Below the pieces are notes generated by a model. That model did no database searches. It had not been told where the DNA came from and saw only the letters and a list, made by a program, of their open reading frames with translations. A DNA stretch of 41,407 nt from Paenibacillus alvei (lineage in GTDB: Bacteria; Bacillota; Bacilli; Paenibacillales; NBRC-103111). Positions 4,080 through 41,407 of this stretch are shown here, in pieces (position 1 is the first letter of the stretch; each line of letters begins with the position of its first letter). Both the position numbers and the translations under genes were made by a program. Location of the stretch: contig CAMCVV010000019.1 in the NCBI GenBank assembly GCA_945881905.1, positions 1-41,407 on the forward strand, given 5' to 3'.

Positions 4080-5525
4080 CTATTCGTAATCGTAACTCGA
4101 TAGGCTAAGATATAATTCGACGTATTGCTGAGCAGACTTCTTCCAACTGAAGTCGCATTTCTTCATGTTATTTTGGATGTGATGCCATGAAGTGGGATCA
4201 TGTTGATACGTGTGGACAGCTCGCTGAACAGCATCGAACATGTCATGCGCATTGTAATGACTGAACGTGAAGCCTGTACCTTCGCCTGTAAACTGATTAT
4301 AGGGCTGTACGGTATCTCGAAGACCGCCGGTTTCTCGTACAATCGGAATTGAGCGGTAACGCATAGCGATCAACTGACCAATACCGCATGGTTCGAACTG
4401 TGACGGCATCAAAAACAGATCAGATGCTGCATAGATTTGATGTGCGAGTGCATCATCAAATGAAATCATAGCTGCAATTTTGTGTGGTTGCATCCAAGCC
4501 GCATGACTAAACATATACTCATAGCGAGGTTCACCTGTACCCAAAATGATCCATTGCACATCTTGCATTGCAAGTAGATCAGCAAGCACATGTTGTATCA
4601 AGTCTAGCCCTTTTTGTTGAACCAAGCGCCCGACAAAAGCAATCATCGGCTTATCTTCTCCGATCGGAAGCCCGAATCTTTCTTGCATATCAAGTTTATT
4701 TTTGGCTTTCTTCGAAAGTGAGTCGCGATAAGGACTGACCACATAAGGATCATTCATCGGATTATAGAGGTCATAATCGATTCCATTGACGATCCCGCTC
4801 AACTCTCTACTGCGATATCTGAGTAAACTATCCATGTGTTCACCATAGTAAGCGGTCTTGATCTCTTCTGCATACGAAGGACTTACTGTTGTAATGCGAT
4901 CAGCAAAGTGTAGTCCCCCTTTGAGAAAACTAGCCCCACCATGAATTTCTAACACTTGACCTGTGAAATAATGATGGCTGAGTCCTAATAATTCTTGAAT
5001 CCATGCCGAAGGGAATATGCCTTGGTATTTCAAATTATGTATCGTCATCACCGTCTGGATCGATTGAAAAAAATCAAGTTGCGCATAGTGAGCTTTCAAC
5101 AATAGAGGAATCATGGCACTTTGCCAATCATGGCAATGAATCACATCAGGTCTGAAATCCAACAAAGGCAGTGACTCTAGAACCCCGCGGCAGAAGAAAG
5201 CGAATCGTTCCGCATCTTGATCATGCCCGTATAGTCCATTTCGCTTGAAATAAAATTCATTATCTACGAAATAATACGTTACGCCGAGATGATCAAGTTG
5301 CTGAATACCACAGAATTGCTTTCTCCATCCTAGCTGAACCTCACATGTGGCTACAGTCTTCATGGCATCTCGATACACTTTGGGTATTTCTCCATATTTG
5401 GGAATGATCACGCGAATATCCATGCCCAGCTCTTTCAATGCTTTCGGTAGAGAGCCGATAACATCAGCAAGTCCACCTGTTTTGGCAAAGGGAACCGCTT
5501 CCGAAGCAACAAATAAAATATTCAT
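4080..5525 (-). CDS. glgA: Glycogen synthase GlgA (ADP-glucose, GT5)
   Basis: Transfers glucose from ADP-glucose to the growing alpha-1,4-glucan in the cytosol. The N-terminal GT5 domain carries the ADP-glucose-binding KTGGLADV at residues 16-23, and the C-terminal GT1-like domain has IAFVGRLVQQKGLDL and the FEPCGIGQL region with the conserved Glu. The product of 481 residues is normal for the family. ATG 5525 is preferred over a TTG one codon upstream because the protein then begins MNILFVASE as in homologues, with GGGAG upstream. It is the last gene of glgB-glgC-glgD-glgA, 21 bases after glgD, and a terminator-like hairpin follows. No glycogen phosphorylase or debranching enzyme lies in the window. 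Confidence 0.96.
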   Translation of the reverse strand: MNILFVASEAVPFAKTGGLADVIGSLPKALKELGMDIRVIIPKYGEIPKVYRDAMKTVATCEVQLGWRKQFCGIQQLDHLGVTYYFVDNEFYFKRNGLYGHDQDAERFAFFCRGVLESLPLLDFRPDVIHCHDWQSAMIPLLLKAHYAQLDFFQSIQTVMTIHNLKYQGIFPSAWIQELLGLSHHYFTGQVLEIHGGASFLKGGLHFADRITTVSPSYAEEIKTAYYGEHMDSLLRYRSRELSGIVNGIDYDLYNPMNDPYVVSPYRDSLSKKAKNKLDMQERFGLPIGEDKPMIAFVGRLVQQKGLDLIQHVLADLLAMQDVQWIILGTGEPRYEYMFSHAAWMQPHKIAAMISFDDALAHQIYAASDLFLMPSQFEPCGIGQLIAMRYRSIPIVRETGGLRDTVQPYNQFTGEGTGFTFSHYNAHDMFDAVQRAVHTYQHDPTSWHHIQNNMKKCDFSWKKSAQQYVELYLSLSSYDYE

Positions 5526-5546
5526 CAATCATCTTCTCCCTCTGCA

Positions 5547-6656
5547 CTAGATTACTCTTGTCTTCGCTGCGATGAATGGTGCTTTGTGATCGCCGGTCAA
5601 CACTCTACCGCGACTAATAAATACATCTTTGTCCAATATTGAATTTTCGATAATTACATTTTCTTCAATTTCACAATTTTGTAGGATAATACTATTCTTC
5701 ACGTAAGCTCCTTTGTGAATATGCACGCCGCGGAACAATATACTATTCTCAACTCTTCCTTCAATTTTACACCCATTCGCAATTAAGGTGTTTTTCACAG
5801 AAGCATCAGCGAAATAATGTGAAGGCGGTTCATCTTTGACTTTCGTATAAATGAGATTTTTTTGAAAAAAGAGTTCGCGCCAAATCCGCGGGTTCAACAA
5901 CTGCATACTTTGTGCATAGTAGCTCTGAATCGAATTCACAATACTCACGTGCCCGTCATATTTATATCCGTACACAGACAGTTTATCGATATTTTTCATA
6001 ATACCGTCTCTGACTAAATTGTCAAAGCCTTGTGCTAAACAAGATTCGATCATATCGAGGAGCAAAGACTTGCTGATGATATACATTTCCATCGATATAT
6101 GATCCGTTCGTAACCTTCCTGTGTGGTCTTCGATTACTGTGACACGACCATCATCTTTGACAGCTAGTCTGCGGAATCGCGCAGGAATATCGGTGCGCGT
6201 ATCTTTATAAATCACTGTAATGTCTGCTTGCTTTTCTTCATGGTAACGAACTGCATCTTGATATTGGATATTGCATACAATATGACTTCGGGAAATAATC
6301 ACAAGTTCTTCTTTTCCACGATAGAAATAATCCCGATGGCTATAGAATTGATACAAATCCCCACGTGACATGCCAGTTGATTGTTCGTACACAGCAGGCA
6401 AGAGAAACAACCCTCCCCGTTTACGATCTAGATCCCATTCTTTCCCCGAACCGAGATGATCCATTAACGAACGGTATTTATCTTGGGTAAATACAGCTAC
6501 ATTATCGATCCCTGAATTGACCATATTCGATAACGTGAAATCAATCAATCGATAACGTCCACCAAACGGCACAGAAGCCAAACAGCGATGATACGTTAAC
6601 TCTTCAAGATCGTCGGGTTCATTCACTAAATTAATCACACCCATGACATGTTTCAA
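5547..6656 (-). CDS. glgD: GlgD, regulatory paralogue of ADP-glucose pyrophosphorylase
   Basis: Partner subunit of GlgC in Bacillales. It has the nucleotidyltransferase fold and a C-terminal left-handed beta-helix, but the N-terminal catalytic glycine-rich loop (GGxGxRL) of GlgC is replaced by INLVNEPDDLEEL, as is known for GlgD. The following SVPFGGRYRLIDF matches the family. I choose TTG 6656: GGAAAGGGTG lies about eight bases upstream, translation begins LKHVMGVINL like known GlgD proteins, and the gene then follows the glgC stop after seven bases. The longer frame to 6710 would overlap glgC by 47 bases. The product is 369 residues. By established knowledge it raises GlgC activity in Bacillus/Geobacillus. 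Confidence 0.93.
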   Translation of the reverse strand: MKHVMGVINLVNEPDDLEELTYHRCLASVPFGGRYRLIDFTLSNMVNSGIDNVAVFTQDKYRSLMDHLGSGKEWDLDRKRGGLFLLPAVYEQSTGMSRGDLYQFYSHRDYFYRGKEELVIISRSHIVCNIQYQDAVRYHEEKQADITVIYKDTRTDIPARFRRLAVKDDGRVTVIEDHTGRLRTDHISMEMYIISKSLLLDMIESCLAQGFDNLVRDGIMKNIDKLSVYGYKYDGHVSIVNSIQSYYAQSMQLLNPRIWRELFFQKNLIYTKVKDEPPSHYFADASVKNTLIANGCKIEGRVENSILFRGVHIHKGAYVKNSIILQNCEIEENVIIENSILDKDVFISRGRVLTGDHKAPFIAAKTRVI

Positions 6657-6663
6657 TTGAATT

Positions 6664-7815
6664 TCACCCTTTCCATCTCGTATTTGCTTCGATATGAATA
6701 TGATTGCCAATTAGTACGATTTCACCATCACCATCCACTACTACACCGTCTTCAATGATACAATTTTCACCAATAATTGCTTTATGAATCTTGACGTTTT
6801 TACCGATACGTACATTCGGCATAATCACTGAATCTTGAATCAGCGAACCTTCTGCGACTTGAACACCATAGAAAAGCACAGAATGTTGAATTTCTCCAAA
6901 CACTTCACAGCCTTCGTTAATAAATGAATTTTGCACAATTGCAGATGATGATATATATTGCGCCGGTTGATACGGATTCACCGAGTATACGCGCCAATTT
7001 TTATCATATAGATCAAGCTCATTATCGCTATTCAACAAATCCATGTTCGCTTCCCATAAGCTTTCGATCGTTCCGACGTCTTTCCAATATCCTTGAAAAG
7101 GGTACGCGAACAACTTAGCGCGGTCACGAAGCATCATCGGTATGATGTCTTTGCCAAAGTCTTTAGTCGATTCCGGGTTTTCTTCATCCAAAATCAAATA
7201 GTTCTTTAACGCTTTCCATGAAAACATATATACACCCATCGACGCTAGATTACTTTTGGGTTGTTTAGGCTTCTCATTGAATTCAGTAATTTCATAATTC
7301 TCATCTACACTTAATATCCCAAAACGATTGGCTTCTTCCCATTTCACTTCGATTACAGCAATCGAGGCATCGGCTTGAGAATTTTTGTGAAAATGCAAGA
7401 GCTGATCATAATCCATCTTATAGATATGATCGCCAGAAATAATCAATACGTATTCAGGATCATATTGTTCAATGAAACCGATATTTTGATAGATCGCATT
7501 GGCTGTTCCTCTATACCAATCTCCTCCCTTTTGCTCCATGAAAGGTTGTAACACTGTGACACCTCCATACTTACGGTCGAGGTCCCATGGTGTACCGATG
7601 CCAATGTATGTGTTGAGAACCAATGGCTGATATTGGGTCAACACACCGACTGTGTCGATTCCCGAATTCGTGCAATTGCTTAATGTGAAATCAATAATTC
7701 GGTATTTCCCACCGAAATGAACTGCTGGCTTAGCGAGCTTATTGGTCAATACGCCGAGTCGTTTCCCTTCTCCTCCGGCTAAGAGCATGGCCACACATTC
7801 TTTACTTTGCATCAT
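6664..7815 (-). CDS. glgC: Glucose-1-phosphate adenylyltransferase GlgC
   Basis: Makes ADP-glucose from ATP and glucose-1-phosphate, the committed step of glycogen synthesis. The catalytic loop [13 protein letters not shown] is at residues 9-21, followed by [15 protein letters not shown] and the [11 protein letters not shown] motif with the conserved Asp. Hexapeptide-type beta-helix repeats fill the C-terminal third ([14 protein letters not shown] onward). It is 383 residues long, normal for a Gram-positive enzyme. The start ATG 7815 follows AAGGAGGG and lies inside the end of glgB (14-base overlap), so translation is probably coupled. Confidence 0.96.
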
Positions 7816-9748
7816 CGGTCCCTCCTTCTTGAATCTCCATAGACTTCGTTTCGCGATGTTTCAAATACAGAACAGCTAGAGGTGGTACTACAATCGAAAT
7901 GCTATTGGGAAGTTGATTATATGCAATAGCTTCACTATGGATATTGTCTAGATTACATTGACCCGATCCCCCATAGGCAAGTTCATCACTATTCAATACT
8001 TCATAATAAGTACCTTCTCTTGGAATTCCGATCCGATAATCCCTATGCACAACAGGTGTGAAATTACATATGAAAATCAAATCGTCTTGGGGGTCACGAC
8101 CTTTTCGGATGAAAACAACAATACTTTGCATCTCGTCATGAGGGTTAATCCATTGAAATCCGTCTGGATGGTGGTCTAGTTCCCATAGAGCAGGTTCCTG
8201 TAAATAAAAATGGTTCAAGGCACGAACATAGTGCAGCATCATCCGATGTAATTCAAATTGGTCTGCGAGAAACCAATCTAGATGTTCTAGGTCTTTCCAC
8301 TCATCGAATTGTCCAAACTCTCCACCCATAAAAAGCAACTTCTTCCCTGGGTGTGCTGACATATATCCATAGAACGCTCTCAAGTTAGCGAATTTCTGCC
8401 ATTCATCTCCCGGCATCTTATGTAACAAAGAACGTTTGCCATGAACGACTTCATCATGAGATAACGGCAAAATATAATTTTCGGAAAATGTATACATAAA
8501 GGAGAACGTAATCAAGTGATGATGCCATCGTCGATCGATCGGATCGAGTTGCATATAAGATAGCATATCATTCATCCATCCCATATTCCATTTATAGTTA
8601 AATCCAAGTCCGCCATCATGGATCGGAGCTGTCACCAAAGGCCAATCTGTAGAATCTTCAGCAATCATCAATGCATCTGGGTAGTAGTGGAACACGGCTT
8701 GATTGAGTCGTCGCAGGAATGACACTGCTTCTGGATTATCTTCCCCACCGAATTGATTTACCAATTTATTTCCCTGCGAAACACCAAAATTGAGATGCAA
8801 TATACTTGCGACAGCATCGACTCGAATGCCGTCAATGTGAAACACATCCATCCAAAATATCGCATTGGATATGAGAAAGCTGATCACTTCAGGTCGACCA
8901 AAATCAAAAGTTAATGTGCCCCAGTCTCGTTTTTCTGCTTTGCGCTCATCGGCATATTCATACAACGGCATCCCATCGAATTGTCTAAGTCCATGGTCAT
9001 CTTTGCAAAAGTGCCCAGGTACCCAGTCCATAATTACGCCGAGTCCGCATTGATGGCACCGATCGACAAACCGCATGAAATCATGTGGTGTCCCATGACG
9101 ACTTGTTACAGCATAATACCCTGTAGCTTGATATCCCCATGATCGATCATACGGATGTTCTGCAAGTGGCATGACTTCAATATGTGTATATCCCATCGAA
9201 ACCGCATAATCGATGAGTTCGTCATGCAATTGATCATACGAATACAACTCTTCGCTATAGCGGTCGTGTTTCTTCCAAGTGCCGAGATGAACTTCATAGA
9301 TCGATAATGGACGATGATAGATCGAGGAAGATTTCTGTCTAGCTTGCCATGCATGATCCTGCCAAGTGTATCCCAACATATCGTATACGCGCGAAGCAGT
9401 TTTCGGACGAACCTCGGCAAAGAAAGCATAGGGATCTGCTTTATATAGGATACGTCCATCTGCTGTGTGAATTTCATATTTATAATGATCACCTGATCGA
9501 GCTCCAGGAACAAATAAGAGCCACAATCCTAATGTGCTGAAGCGTTCCATCTTCGCTTCATGATTCGACCATTGATTGAAATCGCCGACTACTCTGACTT
9601 CTTTAGCTTGTGGAGCCCACACAATAAAGCGAACGCCATCTACCTCTTGTTGACGGCATACATGGGCACCTAACCAACGATAACTATGAAACAGCGAACC
9701 CTCATGAAATAAATACACATCTTCTGCACTTGGCAATGAATCGATCAT
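7802..9748 (-). CDS. glgB: 1,4-alpha-glucan branching enzyme GlgB
   Basis: Introduces alpha-1,6 branches into glycogen. An N-terminal CBM48/early-set domain ([20 protein letters not shown], residues 38-57) precedes a GH13 barrel with DWVPGHF, the nucleophile in GIRVDAV, the acid/base Glu in IAEDSTDWP, and the third carboxylate in LSHDEVVH, then a C-terminal beta domain. The length of 648 residues is normal. Start ATG 9748 follows AAAAGGGG. It opens the operon; upstream lies a 190-base divergent region with an imperfect 8-bp inverted repeat at 9811-9832. The C-terminal tail ([12 protein letters not shown]) is encoded over the glgC SD. Confidence 0.96.
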
Positions 9749-28453: not shown

Positions 28454-29650
28454 TCACATAATTCTCACAGGAGTAGCTTGATTCGATTCACTGCCATTAC
28501 CGAGTTTTCCATATTTATTAGATCCCCACGCCCATAAGCTGCCGTCTTTCTTTAGAGCAATGGTATATTCGAAATTTGCACTGACGCTCGCCCAATCGGT
28601 ACTGCTGCCAATTTGCACAGGGGTAGCTCGATTCGTTTCACTGCCATCACCGAGTTGTCCAAGTTCATTTAATCCCCACGCCCATAAGCTGCCATCTTTC
28701 TTCAGCGCATGGGTATGAAAGGCACCTGCGCTGACACTCGCCCAATCGATACTGCTGCCGATTGGCACAGGTGTAGCTCGATTCGTTTCACTGCCATCAC
28801 CAAGTTGTCCGTATTTATTGCTTCCCCACGCCCATAAGCTACCGTCTTTCTTCAGAGCAATGGTATGATAGTTCCCTGAACTGACAATTGCCCAATCGAT
28901 ACTACTGTCGATTGGCACAGGGGTAGCTTGATTCGTTTCACTGCCATCACCGAGTTGCCCAAGTTCATTCAATCCCCACGCCCATAAGCTGCCGTCTTTC
29001 TTCAGCGCAAGGGTATGAGAGTACCCTGCACTGACACTTGCCCAATCAGTACCGTTATCGATTTGAACAAGGGTATCTTGATCCCTTGTGGTGCCATCAC
29101 CAAGCTGTCCAGATGAATTCCATCCACAGGCCCATAAGCTACCGTCTTTCTTCAGTGCAAGGGTATGAGCGCCCCCTGCAGTGACACTCTCCCAATCGGT
29201 ACTGATGCCGATTTGCATAGGAATAGCTCTATTTGTTTCTCTACTTTCACCGAGTAGTAAAGATTGATTCTCTCCCCACGCCCATAAGCTACCGTCTTTC
29301 TTCAGTGCAAGGGTATACAAGCTTCCTGCACTGACACTTGCCCAATCAGTACTGCTGCCGATTTGAACTGGGGTAGCTTGATTCGTTTCACTGCCATCAC
29401 CGAGTTGTCCAGATGAATTCCATCCCCACGCCCATAAGCTACCGTCTTTCATCAATGCAAGGGTATGAAAGCTTCCTGCACTGACACTCGCATAATCGCT
29501 TATTTTAACTATAGGAGAGGCACTATAGCGTTTTTTGCTAATTTGTGTGTCGTGAGTCATCCAATATATGCCAATCCCAATGAAAGAAAAAGTAATTACT
29601 ATTAAAACAATTATTGGGATTGAACTGAATCTATTGATATAATTTCTCAT
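28454..29650 (-). CDS. RCC1-repeat beta-propeller protein, membrane-anchored
   Basis: A 398-residue protein with a short N-terminal transmembrane segment ([20 protein letters not shown], about 11-30) and then seven 50-residue RCC1 repeats from about residue 50 to the end, each of the form [41 protein letters not shown]. Seven blades make one closed propeller facing outside the cell. Bacterial RCC1 proteins are binding scaffolds of unknown partner. I use ATG 29650, with AAAGGAG 9-10 bases upstream; the frame stays open 14 codons further without SD. Repeat 3 has WACG for WAWG, and repeat 2 is most diverged. A consensus promoter lies at 29930-29958, and a truncated ABC-ATPase copy sits between promoter and gene. 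Confidence 0.9.
28457..29500 (-). repeat. Seven tandem 150-bp coding repeats
   Basis: Seven consecutive units of 150 bases within the RCC1 gene. Several units share long identical stretches at the DNA level (for example the block encoding [10 protein letters not shown]), implying recent duplication or gene conversion. The array may also be prone to copy-number change. Confidence 0.85.
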
Positions 29651-29672
29651 CTTCGGCACTCCTTTATTATCG

Positions 29673-29798
29673 TTAAAGTGTGGGTAAATCATAGTTCGAA
29701 TTGTCTATAATTCGCACGTCATCTTTTCCCTCTACTTTCTCAGTACCCATGCGATATAGTTTGTGTACAGGGTTCACTTCAATCAAGCGAATCCCCAT
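29673..29798 (-). pseudogene. Truncated copy of the 5' end of the MacB-like ATPase gene
   Basis: Positions 29734-29796 match the start of the ATPase gene (34535-34597) at 59 of 63 bases, including the GGGGATTCGC box and the TTG start. The frame reads LIEVNPVHKLYRMGTEKVE, then leaves homology ([13 protein letters not shown]) and stops at 29673, 22 bases before the RCC1 start. It has no Walker A, so it cannot be an ATPase. It remains translatable as a 37-41 residue leader ORF upstream of the RCC1 gene. The rest of the gap 29651-30175 holds a promoter, a terminator and no other gene. Confidence 0.85.
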
Positions 29799-34836: not shown

Positions 34837-35592
34837 ATGGAATTGACGATGGTTCAACTCATCTTGCTGTGTATGTGCGCACTGATGGTAGGGGTCTCTA
34901 AGACTGGTATCCCGAACCTAGGAACGCTTGTAGCAGCTATTCTCGCAGTGATGTTCCCTGCCAAAGCTTCCATCGGCATCTTACTTCCGATGTTGCTTAC
35001 TGCAGATCTCGTTGCAGTGATTACCTATCGACATACCGTCATCTGGCGATTATTGGTGAAGCTGATACCTTGGGTGCTTGCTGGTATCGTTATGGGCTAC
35101 TTCACATTAGGGCAAATCGATAATCATCAACTATCCTTGATAATCGGTGTGATTGTGATTACACTTATCGTCGTGCATCTCTTGAAAGATCCGCTTGAAG
35201 CTCGGTTCCAATTGAAGTGGTCACAATCTACGACATTTCATCATGTGTTGGGTGTGCTCGCAGGCTTCACAACGATGGTCGGCAATGCTGCTGGAGGGAT
35301 CATGGCGATTTATTTTCTCGCCAAAGGCTTGAAGAAGAAAGAGTTCATGGGTACGGGAGCTTGGTTCTATCTCGGAGTCAATCTGCTGAAGGTGCCTTTC
35401 AGCATGGATCTTGGGCTGATCACTACACGCACGTTGGTGTGGAACATGTGGATGATCCCATTGATCCTGCTCGGTACATATATCGGTATTCGTTTGTTGA
35501 AAGTCATCCCTGAGCGATTATTTCAAACTCTGATCTTGTTGTTCGCAGGTATAGGTGGCGTATGGCTATTGGTTCAAGGATGGATCATATAA
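34837..35592 (+). CDS. TauE/SafE-family membrane permease
   Basis: A 251-residue polytopic protein with about eight hydrophobic segments in two halves. The first half carries the family motif GVSKTGIPNLGTLVAAILAV, the second GFTTMVGNAAGGIMAIYFLA. TauE/SafE proteins export sulfite, sulfoacetate or related organic anions; the substrate here is unknown. AAAGGA lies somewhat far (about 12 bases) from ATG 34837. It is a single gene, divergent from the ABC operon, with no sulfur genes nearby. The 120 bases after it hold no clear terminator. Confidence 0.9.
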   Translation: MELTMVQLILLCMCALMVGVSKTGIPNLGTLVAAILAVMFPAKASIGILLPMLLTADLVAVITYRHTVIWRLLVKLIPWVLAGIVMGYFTLGQIDNHQLSLIIGVIVITLIVVHLLKDPLEARFQLKWSQSTTFHHVLGVLAGFTTMVGNAAGGIMAIYFLAKGLKKKEFMGTGAWFYLGVNLLKVPFSMDLGLITTRTLVWNMWMIPLILLGTYIGIRLLKVIPERLFQTLILLFAGIGGVWLLVQGWII

Positions 35593-35715: not shown

Positions 35716-36813
35716 CTATGAACCTGTTATGATTTCACATATTCGGTCGACATCAGCGAGCGCTAACTCCGCATAGAGAGGAAGAGTTAAGATTCTCTGC
35801 GCCACATACTGAGCCACTGGTGTATAAGCGAGGTCGAACTGACCCGCATAGCATTCATATTGGCTCGTCAATGGATAGAAATATTTGCGCGCGATGACTT
35901 CGTGTTTCTTAAGTTCTTCATATACTTCATCTCTGGATTGGCGATATCCATCAAACACCACAGGCATATAGGCATAGTTGCTGGTTACGCCTTGCTGTGG
36001 GATGACCAGTTGAATACCTGGAATGCCTTGTAGATGTGACGTGTATCGCTCGTAGACTATTTGGCGTTGCTTGATTTCACTATCCACATGTCTTAGATTG
36101 CATAGACCCATCGCAGCTTGAAATTCATTCATTTTGGCATTGCCACCTACATGTCTCACGGACTCGGGTCCCGTGATGCCATAATTTTTGAGATCATCAA
36201 GAGTGTCCTTCAAGTTCATCTGTGTATAGGTAACGGCTCCACCTTCGATCGTGTGAAATACCTTCGTCGCATGAAAGCTTATCATCGATGCATCACCGAA
36301 ATTACCAATGCCTACTCCGTCAACTGTAACCCCAAAGCAATGTGCAGCATCATAAATGACCTTAAGGTGATACTTCGCAGCAATCTCTGCGATTCCTCGC
36401 ACATCACACACATGCCCATAGACGTGCACAGGTATGATCGCACTGGTCTTGTCGGTAATTAACGATTCTATGCTTTGCACATCGATCGTATAATCATCAC
36501 GACGAATATCACAGAACACAGGTGTTAAGCCTTTCCTGACAATCGCATGCGTGGTAGAAGCAAATGTGAACGGTGTCGTAATGACTTCTCCTTGTAACTG
36601 AAGAGCTTCAATAGCACATTCTAGTGCTAGGTGTCCATTCGTGAACAACGTAACATAAGGAACGCCTAATACATCGGTTAACGCAGATTCGAATTGCTGA
36701 TGTTTGTGTCCCATGTTGGTCAACCAATGACTATCCCATAAGTCTCTGATTTCTTCGATATACTCCTCGAAACCAGGCATAGATGATTGTGTGACGCGGA
36801 TCGGTCTAGTCAT
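35716..36813 (-). CDS. DegT/DnrJ/EryC1-family sugar aminotransferase (VioA/FdtB-like)
   Basis: PLP enzyme that adds an amino group to an NDP-ketosugar. The PLP lysine lies in SFHATKVFHTIEGG (about residue 185); the aspartate contacting the cofactor nitrogen is in VIYDAAHCFG, and the N-terminal LFTNGHLALECAIEAL is the phosphate-binding loop. SFHATK-F-T-EGG is typical of 4-amino (VioA) or 3-amino (FdtB) dTDP-sugar transaminases. Length 365 is normal. Two copies of an AAGGAGAA-containing block precede ATG 36813. It follows the GT2 gene in one operon. The ketosugar-forming dehydratase (RmlB type) is not in the window. Confidence 0.9.
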   Translation of the reverse strand: MTRPIRVTQSSMPGFEEYIEEIRDLWDSHWLTNMGHKHQQFESALTDVLGVPYVTLFTNGHLALECAIEALQLQGEVITTPFTFASTTHAIVRKGLTPVFCDIRRDDYTIDVQSIESLITDKTSAIIPVHVYGHVCDVRGIAEIAAKYHLKVIYDAAHCFGVTVDGVGIGNFGDASMISFHATKVFHTIEGGAVTYTQMNLKDTLDDLKNYGITGPESVRHVGGNAKMNEFQAAMGLCNLRHVDSEIKQRQIVYERYTSHLQGIPGIQLVIPQQGVTSNYAYMPVVFDGYRQSRDEVYEELKKHEVIARKYFYPLTSQYECYAGQFDLAYTPVAQYVAQRILTLPLYAELALADVDRICEIITGS

Positions 36814-36858: not shown

Positions 36859-37824
36859 TCATCTTCTTCTCAACTTCTTGGTCATCGTTGATATAAGCTG
36901 TGCTAGTCGAGGATAGTCCTGTTTCAAGTATTTGCTAAGAATTCCCTTGATGCCGATGTCTGCATAGAGAAGTCTGAGTTCAAAGAGCTGTAATGTATTG
37001 ATGTCTCTATGTTTGATGATCGAAAGCTGATTGCGCTTCAGCTTGGTTCGTATCGCATCAACATATCGATGATGAGTGTATGCATTGATTTCGTCTAGCA
37101 TCACCTCAATTTGTTTCACAAATCTCGATTTACTTTCGATATGAGTAAATTCCCTATCAGTCCAAGAACCAGGGACGCCTTTGCGATAAGCTGACATCCA
37201 CTCATCGATATAATAGACCTCTCCTTGAAGAGCAAGATGAATCATCAGTGGATAATCGCCCACAGGAGCATTGAAGTAGAAGTCGGGCAGATGCAGATCA
37301 TATATTCGCCGATACATCATCGAATTCGAAGCAAATAACCCTCCTCCTCCGACAATGACTTCCTCGACGGTACATATTTTGTTTCCTTGATAAGGACGCA
37401 CATCACTATCCATGCGTTCTCCATCCACCCACACTTTGTAGGTAGCATGCACGCATAAACTACAAGACGCATGATGGTCCATGTAGTCCACTTGCTTTTG
37501 CAATTTATAGGGATCGGTCCAATAATCATCGCCTTCACAGATCGCGATATAAGTACCTGTTGCATGCTGACTTGCGCTATGCCACGTCTTGACACCTTTG
37601 GAATATTGGTTCTCTGTTTGGTAGATGGGCTTGATGAGCTGTGGATAGTTGCGTTCATATGCGCGAATGATTTCAGTCGTGGTGTCTGTAGATGCATCGT
37701 CATGAATGCAGATCTCATATGGAAAATCAGTTATTTGTAGTAAGAAACTTTCGATCGCTTCTGCGATATAGTGTTCGTGGTTATAAGTTGCACAGATGAT
37801 GCTGACCTTGATTTCCTTGTTCAT
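36859..37824 (-). CDS. Family 2 glycosyltransferase
   Basis: Inverting GT-A enzyme of 321 residues transferring a sugar from an NDP or lipid donor to a glycan. The N-terminal VSIICATYNHEHYI and IHDDASTD bind the nucleotide; EGDDYWTDPYKL carries the DxD-like metal site; a basic tail (KKLRRR) may attach to the membrane. ATG 37824 follows GAGGAG at about ten bases; the frame stays open 15 codons further without SD. It starts the minus arm of the glycan cassette, opposite the triple 23-bp repeat. The sugar and acceptor are unknown; it may transfer the amino sugar made by its neighbours. Confidence 0.9.
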   Translation of the reverse strand: MNKEIKVSIICATYNHEHYIAEAIESFLLQITDFPYEICIHDDASTDTTTEIIRAYERNYPQLIKPIYQTENQYSKGVKTWHSASQHATGTYIAICEGDDYWTDPYKLQKQVDYMDHHASCSLCVHATYKVWVDGERMDSDVRPYQGNKICTVEEVIVGGGGLFASNSMMYRRIYDLHLPDFYFNAPVGDYPLMIHLALQGEVYYIDEWMSAYRKGVPGSWTDREFTHIESKSRFVKQIEVMLDEINAYTHHRYVDAIRTKLKRNQLSIIKHRDINTLQLFELRLLYADIGIKGILSKYLKQDYPRLAQLISTMTKKLRRR

Positions 37825-37957
37825 GAACGATATTCTCCTCGAGTAGTTCGTCTGTAGGGTATCCCTCATTACGTGTTGCAGTGATCACTTTAAGATGATG
37901 AATTGATCAAATCGTATGATCATGTTAACATAATATTGATCATTGCTCAATCTCTCG

Positions 37958-38026
37958 ATAACCCGATCCAGACATATCCATTAACCCGATCCAGACATAT
38001 CCATTAACCTGATCCAGACATGCACA
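37958..38026. repeat. Three tandem 23-bp repeats in the divergent glycan promoter region
   Basis: Units at 37958-37980, 37981-38003 and 38004-38026. The first two differ at one base; the third carries several changes in its second half. Core TAACCCGATCCAGACAT. They lie between the GT2 gene (-) and the acyltransferase gene (+), ending 45 bases before the latter's ATG. Possible binding sites for a regulator. Confidence 0.85.
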
Positions 38027-38070
38027 TCTCGCAATGGAAGGGTTCGTATCTAGCAGAGGAGTGTGAGCAG

Positions 38071-38745
38071 ATGAGCCATGAGGTCATCGTCTATGGAAGT
38101 AGAGCATTGGCCGCCATGTTATATGAAGATTCTTTACGACATCCTGATTTTACGATCGTAGCTTTTGTAGTAGATGAATCGTACTTAGATCCTTCCGGCT
38201 ATTATTTAGGATTGCCTCAGGTAGGGTTGCAGTCGGTTTCTGATCTGTATCCGCGCGCAACCTACGATATGATGATCTTAATCTCTACCTATGAGGATAT
38301 GCGAATTCGCGATAGCATGTATCATTCATCCATCTCCTTAGGGTATCCGCTACGGAATTATGTAAGTCCCTCAAGCATCGTTTCCTCCCATGTTAGCATG
38401 GGACATAATAATGTCATCTTTGAGCAAGTATATATGGGTCCACAGGGACGTATGGGGTCATTTAACATCATTCGACAACACGTCTACATCGGTCATGATT
38501 TCACAATAGGAGATCGCAATGTGATCGCACCTGGCTGTAAGATTGGTGGGCATGCACACATTGCGCATCATTGTTATATCGGTATAGGTGCTACTCTCAT
38601 CGATCACATCTCGATTGCTGAGGAAAGCTTGGTAGGTGCAGGTAGTGTTGTCATCAAGGATACCGAACCGTATTCGAGGAATGTCGGTAATCCCAGCAGA
38701 GTCATCAGCTATAAGCAACAAGAAGGATTGAAGGTGAACCGCTAA
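38071..38745 (+). CDS. NeuD/PglD/VioB-like sugar acyltransferase
   Basis: Left-handed beta-helix acyltransferase of 224 residues. An N-terminal Rossmann-like domain starts VIVYGSRALAAMLYE, followed by hexapeptide repeats from about residue 110 (SSHVSMGHNNVIFEQVYMG, HVYIGHDFTIGDRNVIAPG, HAHIAHHCYIGIGATLIDH), with the catalytic His likely in the IGHDF or HHCYIG turns. Such enzymes N- or O-acylate amino sugars with acyl-CoA. ATG 38071 is about nine bases after GAGGAG; the frame is open further to 38020 within the third 23-bp repeat. The next gene begins one base after its stop, so the two are co-translated. It probably acylates the amine formed by the DegT enzyme. Confidence 0.83.
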   Translation: MSHEVIVYGSRALAAMLYEDSLRHPDFTIVAFVVDESYLDPSGYYLGLPQVGLQSVSDLYPRATYDMMILISTYEDMRIRDSMYHSSISLGYPLRNYVSPSSIVSSHVSMGHNNVIFEQVYMGPQGRMGSFNIIRQHVYIGHDFTIGDRNVIAPGCKIGGHAHIAHHCYIGIGATLIDHISIAEESLVGAGSVVIKDTEPYSRNVGNPSRVISYKQQEGLKVNR

Positions 38746-38746
38746 G

Positions 38747-39661
38747 ATGAATCCGATCATCGTGAACTTCACACCGACGGGCATGATCCCTCGGCTTACA
38801 GATACCCCTTATGTGCCGATTACCCCTGAAGAAATCATCCGTGATGTGCAGGAAGCATGGGAACTGGGGATTTCCATGGTGCATCTGCATGCAAGAGACC
38901 GTGTCGATCAGACACCTCGCCATCAGAAGGAACTATATCATGAGATTATCGCAGGGATTCGACAATTCGCACCGGAGCTCATTATCTGTGTATCTACATC
39001 AGGTCGATCCGTGAATGAATGGGGAGCCCGATCCGATGTATTGTCACTTGAAGGCGATGTGAAGCCTGATATGGCTAGCTTGACACTCAGCTCCCTGAAC
39101 TTCAATCAGAGTGCGAGCATCAATGAGCCTGCGATGATTCAATCCCTGGCGAAGCGGATGTACGAACAAGGCATTCAACCTGAATTGGAATTATTTGATC
39201 TGGGTATGGTGAATTATTGCCATTATTTGATTAAGAAGGGGTACCTCTCTCCTCCCTATTACGCCAACATCATACTGGGTAATGTGGCTTGTGCTCAAGC
39301 GGATATGTTACATATCGGCTGTATGATCAACGATCTTCCTGAAGAAACCCTGTTCGCCTTAGGTGCAGTGGGTCAAGCTCAATTGAAGATCAATGCCCTC
39401 GCCATCGCCATGGGCTGGGGAGTACGTGTAGGGATCGAAGATAACTATTGGTATGATGATGCAAGAACCCAATTAGCTGCAAATATCACCTTTTTGCAGA
39501 GAATACATCGGATTATCTCAGCCAATGAGCATGCGGTGATGACATCTCAAGAATTACGTCACAAACTCAACTTGGCACCAGGGTATGGGCGATACGGTAC
39601 TGCCCGTTCGCACGTAGTAAATGGATCCCACGATGCAACGATACAGGGCGTAGATCTGTAA
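38747..39661 (+). CDS. BKACE-family beta-keto acid cleavage enzyme (DUF849, Kce-like)
   Basis: Zn-dependent enzyme family converting a beta-keto acid plus acetyl-CoA into acetoacetate and a new acyl-CoA. The metal pair is HLH at His46/His48, with Glu231 and Asp232 in VGIEDNYWYD, Arg227 just before, and Ser83 in CVSTSGR: all positions known to matter in Kce, within one residue in number. Length 304 is normal. No lysine-fermentation genes (kdd, kal, kam) are present; instead it follows the sugar acyltransferase by one base. I infer that it supplies an unusual acyl-CoA for sugar acylation. The true substrate needs testing. Confidence 0.88.
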   Translation: MNPIIVNFTPTGMIPRLTDTPYVPITPEEIIRDVQEAWELGISMVHLHARDRVDQTPRHQKELYHEIIAGIRQFAPELIICVSTSGRSVNEWGARSDVLSLEGDVKPDMASLTLSSLNFNQSASINEPAMIQSLAKRMYEQGIQPELELFDLGMVNYCHYLIKKGYLSPPYYANIILGNVACAQADMLHIGCMINDLPEETLFALGAVGQAQLKINALAIAMGWGVRVGIEDNYWYDDARTQLAANITFLQRIHRIISANEHAVMTSQELRHKLNLAPGYGRYGTARSHVVNGSHDATIQGVDL

Positions 39662-40228: not shown

Positions 40229-40573
40229 ATGATGCTCCCGATTCAAGCGCCAGTAGCACAACAAGTATAACAGCAAGTAGAACGACCAGTAGAACGACCA
40301 CTAGATCAACAAGCAGATATGATAAATCTAAAACAAAAAAACGAATTATTGCGTATTTCCTTAACAGCTCAAAGACCTGATCTGTCATGGGTTTTTGAAG
40401 TCGATGAAATGATTGAAGTAGATGATCTACTAGGTGGAGAGTTACATAGTGCAGTATGTGATCATTTCCTGGAATTCGGCAAAGATCCTGGTGTGAAATT
40501 TGATAGGAATTTCTGGGCAAATAAATTCTGCTTGGAGCTTGAAGATTCAATAGATGATACTGGTAACTGGTAG
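40229..40573 (+). pseudogene. Unknown small protein gene interrupted by one TAA
   Basis: One frame runs from ATG 40229 to TAG 40573 with a single internal TAA (40268-40270). Around it the sequence is QQV-stop-QQVERPVERPLDQQ, which fits a CAA-to-TAA change. The downstream 100 residues have an acidic, low-repeat composition (VFEVDEMIEVDDLLGGELHS and DRNFWANKFCLELED) and may be an intact cytosolic domain; no family is recognised. The part from ATG 40319 (84 residues) could still be made but has no SD. Within 40277-40300 a 12-bp unit is repeated (GTAGAACGACCA twice). A strong terminator follows, which supports a once-real gene. Confidence 0.5.
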
Positions 40574-40647: not shown

Positions 40648-40896
40648 ATAATTTGATCCCTTATAGGATTCAATTTTGGCCCTTCGATTCGTTTCAATTC
40701 GAATTCAATACCGCTCTATAAGATTGTTGTGTACATCCATGCGAAATAAGTCGAGCGATTTTTGTTGAATTTCTTCCATATTTTAGTTATTATAGCTATC
40801 CATGGATTATATCGCGTAATGACCTTTTCTAGAGAGACAGACGCATCTTTACATTTACGAACAAGAGCAATCAGAGAAAAGGTGGAATCAGACAAC

Positions 40897-41407
40897 ATGA
40901 ATGTACGAACAAGTAAGAAAATGTGGGCATTGAAATGGGTATTGACCGTTCTTCTCCTGGCTAATGTGTTACCTAGCATTAGTGCAATGGGGCAAGAATT
41001 AAGTCAAGGAAGCGTATTATCTGCGAATAGTGCAGATAGCGCTTATCAAGCGGATCCAGGTGAAGTAACAAGTCTATCTTTGGCAAGTCTAGCAGTTGCT
41101 ACTGACGAAGCAGAGCAAGCATATATTGAACTGATTGAATCAAAGCTATCCGAAATCGAACAAGCGATTGACGCCATCCGCATCGATGCTGAAGTAGCGA
41201 GCGAAACCACGTTACATGAGGAAACAATTCTACATGTAACTGAAGAAGAAGTTCTAATTGATCTTGCAGATGCAACACCATCTGATGAACAGAACCCATC
41301 AAAGCGAAGCAAACGAGCGATAGAAACAGTTGCTGACGCTGCTAGCTTAGGACATAGTATATATGAGTACAACAAGAAACCCACATTAACCAATGGTTTA
41401 TTCATGG
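40897..41407 (+). CDS. N-terminus of a large secreted protein, cut by the right edge
   Basis: An open frame of 170 codons running off the window. ATG 40897 follows AAAGGTGG at about 11 bases. Residues 1-30 are a clear signal peptide (basic start, hydrophobic WVLTVLLLANVLP, likely cleavage after SISA). Then comes an acidic Ala/Ser-rich stretch with a short coiled coil (about 70-100), a dibasic SKRSKR at 135-140, and an Ala-rich segment ADAASLGHSIYEYNKKPTLT that resembles the region before toxin domains in Gram-positive polymorphic toxins or RHS/WapA-like proteins. That likeness is weak and the diagnostic C-terminal part is missing. No function can be assigned. Confidence 0.65.
   Translation, partial: MNVRTSKKMWALKWVLTVLLLANVLPSISAMGQELSQGSVLSANSADSAYQADPGEVTSLSLASLAVATDEAEQAYIELIESKLSEIEQAIDAIRIDAEVASETTLHEETILHVTEEEVLIDLADATPSDEQNPSKRSKRAIETVADAASLGHSIYEYNKKPTLTNGLFM

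Follow-up and report, generated by a model that had tools for sequence, protein, structure and literature searches.

A distinct BKACE clade encoded beside acyltransferases and a predicted sugar-modification cassette in Paenibacillus alvei

The stretch of DNA analysed here (the window; 41,407 nucleotides, contig CAMCVV010000019.1 of Paenibacillus alvei assembly GCA_945881905.1) raises the question of why an enzyme of the BKACE family should be encoded immediately behind a putative sugar acyltransferase. All four genes named in the original prediction were found, each with Pfam matches: a NeuD/PglD-like left-handed beta-helix (LbH) acyltransferase (38071..38745, plus strand) and the BKACE (38747..39661, plus strand), divergent from a family 2 glycosyltransferase (GT2; 36859..37824, minus strand; PF00535, 80.8 bits) and a DegT/DnrJ/EryC1 sugar aminotransferase (35716..36813, minus strand). 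The predicted one-base spacing also holds, the acyltransferase stop codon ending at 38745 and the BKACE ATG lying at 38747.

The reading that we favour, with a probability of roughly 0.57, is that the BKACE makes a dedicated acyl-CoA for the N-acylation of a 4-amino-4,6-dideoxy sugar within a four-gene sugar-modification cassette. The DegT enzyme would place an amino group onto C4 of an NDP-4-keto-6-deoxy sugar; the BKACE, by the chemistry of its family, would convert a beta-keto acid and acetyl-CoA into acetoacetate and the dedicated acyl-CoA; the NeuD-like enzyme, to judge from the pairing, would transfer the acyl group onto the sugar amine, and GT2 would add the sugar to a surface glycan. 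Anthrose of Bacillus spores is likewise a 4-amino-4,6-dideoxy sugar with an unusual N-acyl group, and its pathway employs an enoyl-CoA hydratase for the 3-hydroxy-3-methylbutyryl group. No hydratase was present among the 25 window proteins put through Pfam, and the likeness to anthrose is one of logic only.

The BKACE matched PF05853 (DUF849) over the whole domain with 250.6 bits (gathering cut-off 24.8) and was the sole match to this family in its genome. In common with Kce it has the Zn ligands (H46, H48, E231), the Glu that serves as catalytic base (E148) and R227 (Kce Arg226), all kept in 84/84 aligned sequences of its clade, and presumably the beta-keto acid plus acetyl-CoA chemistry. In BKACE15 the catalytic base is Glu171, the replacement of which by Leu abolished activity (PMC11961710); from the pair Tyr173/Tyr145 this residue probably corresponds to Kce E143. 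The position of Kce Tyr145, a residue said to occur in all BKACE sequences (PMC12871164), is occupied by Phe150 in 84/84 clade sequences. However, 3no5, which also has Phe there, scored 494 bits against the cut-off of 350 for NF053568 (3-oxoadipate:acetyl-CoA BKACE equivalog), and Tyr145 is therefore not strictly defining for BKACE. The amine-binding Kce Glu14 is replaced by Ile14 in the window, and by Ile, Leu or Val in 84/84 clade sequences. Together with Phe150, this makes lysine-type (3-amino-acyl) chemistry unlikely, and a 3-amino acyl group is disfavoured by the Glu14 replacement. The expectation that the residues for BKACE chemistry are in place and the enzyme should be active is thus mostly, not wholly, right: it stands for the Zn ligands, E148 and R227 and fails at Phe150 and Ile14.

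Further differences from Kce (T7N, I10P, H168Y, Q170N and V175N, Kce numbering) accompany a 15-residue signature of the clade: N7, P10, S85, R87, T113, F150, N156, Y160, Y172, N174, N179, Q184, Q212, N216 and G225. All 15 residues are present in 84/84 aligned clade sequences; the alignment was built without survey loci L159, L160, L162 and L164, of which L162 and L164, added later, have 15/15 and L159 14/15 (L160 was never added). The signature clade is separate in the tree (SH-aLRT 98-100), which was calculated without L160 (its BKACE reading frame is interrupted), the viral L167, L168 and L175, and the short or near-duplicate controls L006, L007, L011, L012, L024, L025 and L030-L037. The active site stays constant within the clade, which speaks for a single acyl-CoA being made by all of its members.

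The clade is further distinguished from other BKACE and Kce enzymes by its pairing with acyltransferases. In the set of 88 clade loci, 81 BKACE genes have an acyltransferase gene (34 NeuD-like/LbH, 47 GNAT) as direct neighbour, on the same strand and within 100 bp; the gap was taken between stop-to-stop open frames, with a median of -6 in the paired clade loci. The same arrangement was seen at 3 of 47 other BKACE loci, these controls being the 22 survey loci L137-L158 and 25 others, some near-identical to each other. It should be added that the 88 loci are an uneven sample, 80 of them being the best of at least 551 matches and 52 of those 80 belonging to Bacteroidota; records G601, G625 and G576 were taken as the same as L105, L070 and L066 because their contigs are equally long, and each was counted once. 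In an even survey of 398 genomes of the same phylum, the pairing was present at 8/8 clade loci and at 0/22 other BKACE loci fetched (of 113); the training of both detectors, NeuD and GNAT, drew on neighbours within this same set of loci, with 4/8 survey loci outside the training. Reciprocally, the NeuD subfamily, searched with a profile built from BKACE-paired NeuDs, occurred in 8/398 genomes, and 7 of these also belong to the 8 genomes that encode a BKACE of the clade. These controls and the reciprocal survey make chance adjacency very unlikely, and we rejected it.

Any LbH match was found in nine controls, of which three (L006-L008) passed the strict rule; by eye, L023-L025 and L030 have gamma-carbonic-anhydrase-like neighbours, and L010 and L021 are in DegT-containing loci. 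Distances of NeuD and BKACE were correlated over 33 loci (r 0.57, 0/5000 permutations), and with the three Trichococcus copies removed r was 0.34 (1/5000 permutations); L006-L008, L061 and L160 were left out of this analysis. The pair is repeatedly accompanied by genes for DegT and GT2, for example in the contiguous four-gene set L052, with identities to the window of 47% (NeuD), 60% (BKACE), 48% (GT2) and 52% (DegT). Two exceptions count against the favoured reading: one genome has a second NeuD of the subfamily with no BKACE beside it (L189), and another has an FdtA-like/NeuD fusion that lacks a BKACE (L190).

The functional coupling of BKACE with an acyltransferase is thus supported, and it extends further than first proposed. 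Its recurrence in other genomes is borne out by these counts; a NeuD-only partner proved too narrow, since a GNAT takes the place of the NeuD-like neighbour at 48 of the 88 loci, one of which has both within 1.5 kb. No evident sugar genes were seen by eye at the GNAT-neighbour loci, and acceptors other than sugars are therefore conceivable in some cases. We would only tentatively entertain the broader proposal that the BKACE clade and an N-acyltransferase, LbH or GNAT, form a general mobile two-gene module making and installing one specific N-acyl group, which we hold to be possible, with the odds against it.

Paired genes were recorded in contigs bearing about a dozen different phylum labels, and BKACE-acyltransferase pairs are also present on some contigs predicted to be viral; phage records gave no match at 1e-10. 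A genome scan with an alignment as query returned at least 551 genome stretches encoding relatives, of which the best 80 were read, unlike a scan with one protein query, which returned no matches. The side-by-side pair in many unrelated bacteria and in predicted viral sequences suggests that they modify their surface sugars in a common manner.

The nearest outgroup relatives, 46% and 41% identical and encoded on plasmids of Salmonella enterica and Streptomyces camelliae, match the 15-residue signature at 13 and 10 positions, and the flavin-like clusters around them include no gene annotated as an acyltransferase in the vicinity. The pocket alone thus does not imply an acyltransferase partner, and this context lowered our confidence in the favoured reading from 0.60 to the value given above. 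The plasmid-borne relatives carry names after lysine degradation; if the clade supplies acyl groups, this naming would be corrected.

The same outgroup relatives, having most of the signature and no acyltransferase neighbour, speak for an unlikely alternative modelled on BsfD of flavophos biosynthesis, a DUF849 enzyme which transfers acetyl without cleavage and has Phe (Phe166) for the catalytic Tyr (PMC12871164), as do 84/84 clade sequences. The window enzyme would then add acetyl to C2 of a beta-keto acid with no cleavage, giving a diketone-type product, and the acyltransferase would use another donor. BsfD differs in acting on a phosphonate and in an inserted segment of about 20 residues (PMC12871164). 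Against this alternative, the score of 3no5 indicates that Phe alone does not abolish cleavage, if the NF053568 model is right, and a free diketone would leave the pairing with two acyltransferase folds unexplained.

Slightly less probable is that the acyltransferase adds ordinary acetyl, with the BKACE only managing acetoacetate or regenerating acetyl-CoA. The closest solved relative of the acyltransferase bears the name perosamine N-acetyltransferase (4ea7), and the BKACE reaction is reversible (PMC11961710); yet acetyl-CoA is general, so that a dedicated adjacent enzyme with an unchanged pocket across phyla would seem superfluous. The acyltransferase itself matched PF00132 (hexapeptide) with 42.1 bits, above the cut-off, and TIGR03570 (NeuD/PglB/VioB) with 142.7 bits over residues 22-227 of its longest ORF, under the curated cut-off of 160.8, and is therefore termed NeuD-like rather than called a member. 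This ORF starts at 38020; the start was set at 38071, just after AGAGGAG, since homologues align from there. Counted from 38071, His142 is nearly invariant (at least 90%) in 25 aligned sequences. With PglD, NeuD, VioB and PerB the enzyme thus shares the left-handed beta-helix, the conserved His and the setting in DegT amino-sugar clusters, whereas those are named acetyltransferases and the fixed neighbour here is a BKACE.

A slimmer chance again attaches to the BKACE acting on an acylated nucleotide sugar or carrier-bound intermediate, making or breaking a C-C bond of the N-acyl group, with no free beta-keto acid as substrate. In its favour, many of the signature residues are Asn, Gln or Tyr, and DUF849 groups G6 and G7 are described as lacking BKACE activity (PMC4922564), but GNAT and LbH partners presumably differ in acceptor, yet the signature is the same for both. 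Finally, a lysine-fermentation or other catabolic Kce placed there by chance is highly improbable and was rejected in spite of the family membership, because NF052387 gave 200.7 bits where 382 are required and because Glu14 is replaced; the pairing controls also speak against it. A search of the genome for lysine aminomutase gave no match but, having no positive control, carries no weight by itself.

Concerning the acyl group that the favoured reading calls for, no dedicated beta-keto acid gene recurring across clade loci was seen by eye in the part of the loci inspected, which speaks against that reading. KAS III-like and adenylation genes occur in Trichococcus L039, KAS III and a reductase in L087 and a KAS III-like gene, by eye, in L100; these neighbours were not seen to recur widely, and inference from them was abandoned and no acyl group is named. 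Arg87 of the clade, also found at the same position in the 3-oxoadipate-type 3no5, may point to a substrate that has another carboxylate besides that of the beta-keto acid; that it is a ubiquitous compound, for instance oxaloacetate yielding an oxalyl group, is speculation. Among the matches listed, the literature search gave no paper on BKACE in glycans and nothing relevant on NeuD and acyl donors. One parallel, the O-antigen R-group genes wfpC-wfpG of Flavobacterium psychrophilum, places a pglD homologue beside predicted special acyl-donor genes for a 4-amino sugar; the donor there is a predicted ACP thioester supplied by genes resembling a type II FAS, and the available excerpt of that paper does not mention BKACE (PMC6519341). 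If the favoured reading is true, a single gene of the clade would give access to unusual N-acyl sugars, and the nature of a conserved modification of the cell surface would become open to direct study, e.g. in Winogradskyella or in Trichococcus, whose BKACE is 70% identical to that of the window.

As for the divergent genes, the DegT protein (PF01041, 320.6 bits) carries SFHATKVFHTIEGG, its PLP Lys184 is invariant in 9/9 aligned sequences and its closest solved relative is 2po3 (192.4 bits). A PF02719 sugar dehydratase gene (407 bits) lies elsewhere in the genome and scored 194.8 bits against the PseB equivalog, under the cut-off of 407.75. Position 37824 is the likely GT2 start codon on the minus strand, preceded by GAGGAGAA (by eye) in an ORF open to 37869, and bounds with the acyltransferase start (38071) an intergenic region at 37825..38070. 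Between 35500 and 40200, 11 sigma-70-like sites were found against 12.0 expected from shuffles, and therefore no promoter is claimed in this region. Upstream of the acyltransferase start, at 37959..38021 (plus strand), lies a 23-bp tandem repeat of 2.7 copies (TRF, 97% matches), the 21-base core of which has no match elsewhere in the genome with up to two mismatches allowed.

The arrangement proposed in the original prediction, a NeuD-like acyltransferase gene and a BKACE gene one base apart in the company of DegT and GT2 genes, was confirmed in the window. A TauE-type permease (34837-35592, forward strand) is followed by the DegT transaminase (35716-36813) and GT2 (36859 to about 37824), both on the reverse strand, and then by the forward-strand NeuD-like acyltransferase (38071-38745) and BKACE (38747-39661), the latter being the sole PF05853 match in the whole genome (2.4 Mb, completeness 99.6%). 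The divergent region of the cassette holds a 23-bp tandem repeat (37959-38021; 2.7 copies, 97% matches), the 21-base core of which has no other copy genome-wide with up to two mismatches allowed; speculatively, changes in the number of copies could affect how strongly the acyltransferase and BKACE genes are expressed.

The window BKACE was aligned with 83 relatives, namely three from genomes of the same family (G056, G022 and G044; 51-55% identical to it) and the best 80 of at least 551 genome-contig stretches. Fifteen residues (N7, P10, S85, R87, T113, F150, N156, Y160, Y172, N174, N179, Q184, Q212, N216 and G225) were identical in all 84 sequences, against 0/15 in Kce, the BKACE of lysine fermentation (2y7d), and 3/15 in the 3-oxoadipate-type enzyme 3no5. 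Beyond the 84, this signature of the clade was close to constant, not fully so (15 residues in loci L162 and L164, 14 in L159). The zinc ligands H46, H48 and E231 were unchanged throughout the alignment, as were E148, R227 and D232; conservation, like homology and gene adjacency, is a direct observation. By the Tyr173/Tyr145 pairing given in a preprint (PMC12871164), E148 would be the counterpart of Glu171, reported as the catalytic base of BKACE15 in PMC11961710. Two positions depart from the characterised enzymes: that of Kce Glu14 (Ile in 78, Leu in five, Val in one) and that of Kce Tyr145 (Phe in 84/84). The same preprint describes Tyr in every BKACE sequence and ties its loss in BsfD, the DUF849 enzyme of flavophos biosynthesis, to a different chemistry (PMC12871164). 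We do not take Phe150 as disproof, since 3no5 in the PDB also has Phe there, yet scores 494 bits against a cut-off of 350 for the NCBIfam equivalog 3-oxoadipate:acetyl-CoA acetyltransferase.

Neighbouring genes were scored with HMMs built from the NeuD-like and GNAT partners. A partner lay within 1.5 kb at 82 of the 88 clade loci (34 NeuD-like, 47 GNAT, one both). When pairing was restricted to partners that scored 80 bits or more, on the BKACE strand and with no more than 100 bp between the open frames (the strict rule), it was found at 81/88 clade loci and 3/47 other BKACE loci; the Fisher p of 2e-24 is indicative only, because the 88 loci are an uneven sample of related sequences. The seven unpaired loci include L099, where a GNAT gene lies on the opposite strand, L067, where the GNAT match is weak, and L113 and L118, where a left-handed beta-helix (LbH) gene is farther away. 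An even sample of 398 genomes from the same phylum provided the better test: the clade stood apart by score (eight genomes at 393-535 bits, next match 251), and all eight clade loci were paired, as against none of 22 other BKACE loci, these being the ones fetched out of 113 other matches (Fisher p 1.7e-7). In genome G570 the partner is an LbH protein that has diverged further (140.7 bits). Conversely, the NeuD subfamily occurred in eight of the 398 genomes, seven of which carry a clade BKACE, an overlap favoured by a profile derived from BKACE-paired NeuDs. Exceptions are G745, where an FdtA-like/NeuD fusion occurs without BKACE, and G674, where a second NeuD lies on a short contig that lacks BKACE.

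The strict NeuD pairs (26 among 80 named loci) fall under 13 labels at phylum level if KSB1 is taken as one, though many of these genomes are MAGs with possible mis-binning, and the Fusobacteria label of L070 clashes with the 398-genome survey, which places its genome in the phylum of the window. The 47 strict GNAT pairs comprise 45 from Bacteroidota, one from Chlorobiota and one labelled Pseudomonadota. Among five GNAT-type neighbours searched against Pfam, three cleared a GNAT cut-off (L080, L099, L107), L047 fell just short (20.0 vs 20.7) and that of L056 had no Pfam match. NeuD-type loci repeatedly contain DegT and GT2 genes (BLAST labels) and also WbqC genes (assigned by Pfam at L112, elsewhere by eye), and in a Bacillota MAG (L052) the four genes of the window form a single run at 47-60% identity. 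A DegT gene and an FdtA-type isomerase gene, the latter assigned by Pfam at L048 and by eye at L070 and L164, suggest 3-amino sugars at these three loci.

For a near-constant active site with two unrelated acyltransferase types as fixed partners, the best explanation is a donor common to both, an acyl-CoA which the BKACE would make and the partner consume. The probable acceptor in the window is an NDP-4-amino-4,6-dideoxy sugar: 2po3 is the nearest solved structure to the DegT, DesI its nearest NCBIfam model (286.6 bits, under the cut-off of 650), and a PF02719 dehydratase (407 bits) is encoded in the genome. We infer the enzyme activity, the identity of the acyl group, its acceptor and the glycan. 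The core of the proposed BKACE-acyltransferase coupling stood and was extended, whereas the acyl groups it had offered as examples (3-hydroxy- or 3-amino-acyl) found no support. Beside the pair, no recurrent pathway to a dedicated beta-keto acid was seen; speculatively, the substrate would then be a common metabolite. More than 20 of 124 BKACEs can form formyl-CoA from malonate semialdehyde, according to CORE-cycle work (PMC11961710), and therefore the acyl range is not readable from family membership alone.

Against acyl-CoA supply for sugar N-acylation stand the nearest outgroup BKACEs, on plasmids of Salmonella enterica (L176, 9001-9870) and Streptomyces camelliae (L177, 5983-6837), 46% and 41% identical to that of the window, which have 13 and 10 of the 15 signature residues without an annotated acyltransferase nearby. 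They lie in flavin-like clusters with ribA, methyltransferase and gamma-glutamyltransferase genes, and a so far unrecognised DUF849 role in flavin-analogue synthesis is possible. With these relatives considered, we put the probability of N-acyl supply at roughly 0.57; the wider proposal of a mobile two-gene acyl module, likewise lowered by them, is tentative and rather doubtful.

In a tree of 133 rows, made by quick search and with several long branches, the clade formed one branch (SH-aLRT 98-100), with L177 at its base and L176 weakly within. The window BKACE fell with those of four Trichococcus and an Acidobacteria MAG (support 96) instead of the three from its own family, a placement that suggests horizontal transfer. 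Relatives were also present on 10 contigs, viral by the calls of their source collection, of which eight are distinct, L166-L168 being identical across the compared stretches. All 15 signature residues were found in seven of the 10 (14 in L172, 13 in L171 and L175). A NeuD-like gene adjoins the BKACE on L172-L174 (85.6-135 bits); on L166 and L170 the neighbour, of 323-326 aa, is unscored by the GNAT HMM and marginally above a Pfam GNAT cut-off, and GT2 and very long open frames lie near the L166 pair. No partner acyltransferase was seen beside the BKACE on L169, L171 and L175.

In searches of open-licence full texts, none of the titles and abstract openings listed deals with a role of BKACE/DUF849 in N-acylation of glycans or sugars. 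One feature table, for Vibrio parahaemolyticus, includes kce as well as genes such as fdtA and gmd (PMC13234855). The nearest published logic, from F. psychrophilum, is a pglD homologue alongside predicted ACP-based acyl-making genes (PMC6519341). Distant BKACE lineages (26-35% identical to the window; L006-L008, L010, L020, L021) lie near sugar genes, e.g. DegT or LbH (partly by eye), and therefore BKACEs may have been recruited to glycans on more than one occasion.

Elsewhere on the contig, an ORF truncated by its end (40762-41406) has a KRSKR run and a long stretch rich in acidic residues and alanine, with no Pfam match at 1e-5; ahead of the contig end is a 12-bp AGTAGAACAACA-type tandem repeat (40252-40317; 5.5 copies, 75% matches). 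At 28454-29692, an RCC1-repeat protein is encoded by 6.9 tandem copies of a 150-bp DNA unit (80% matches), which suggests repeat expansion. A glycogen-type gene set on the reverse strand (4080-9748) comprises starch synthase, two nucleotidyltransferases with GlmU-like ends and an alpha-amylase/CBM48 branching-type enzyme.
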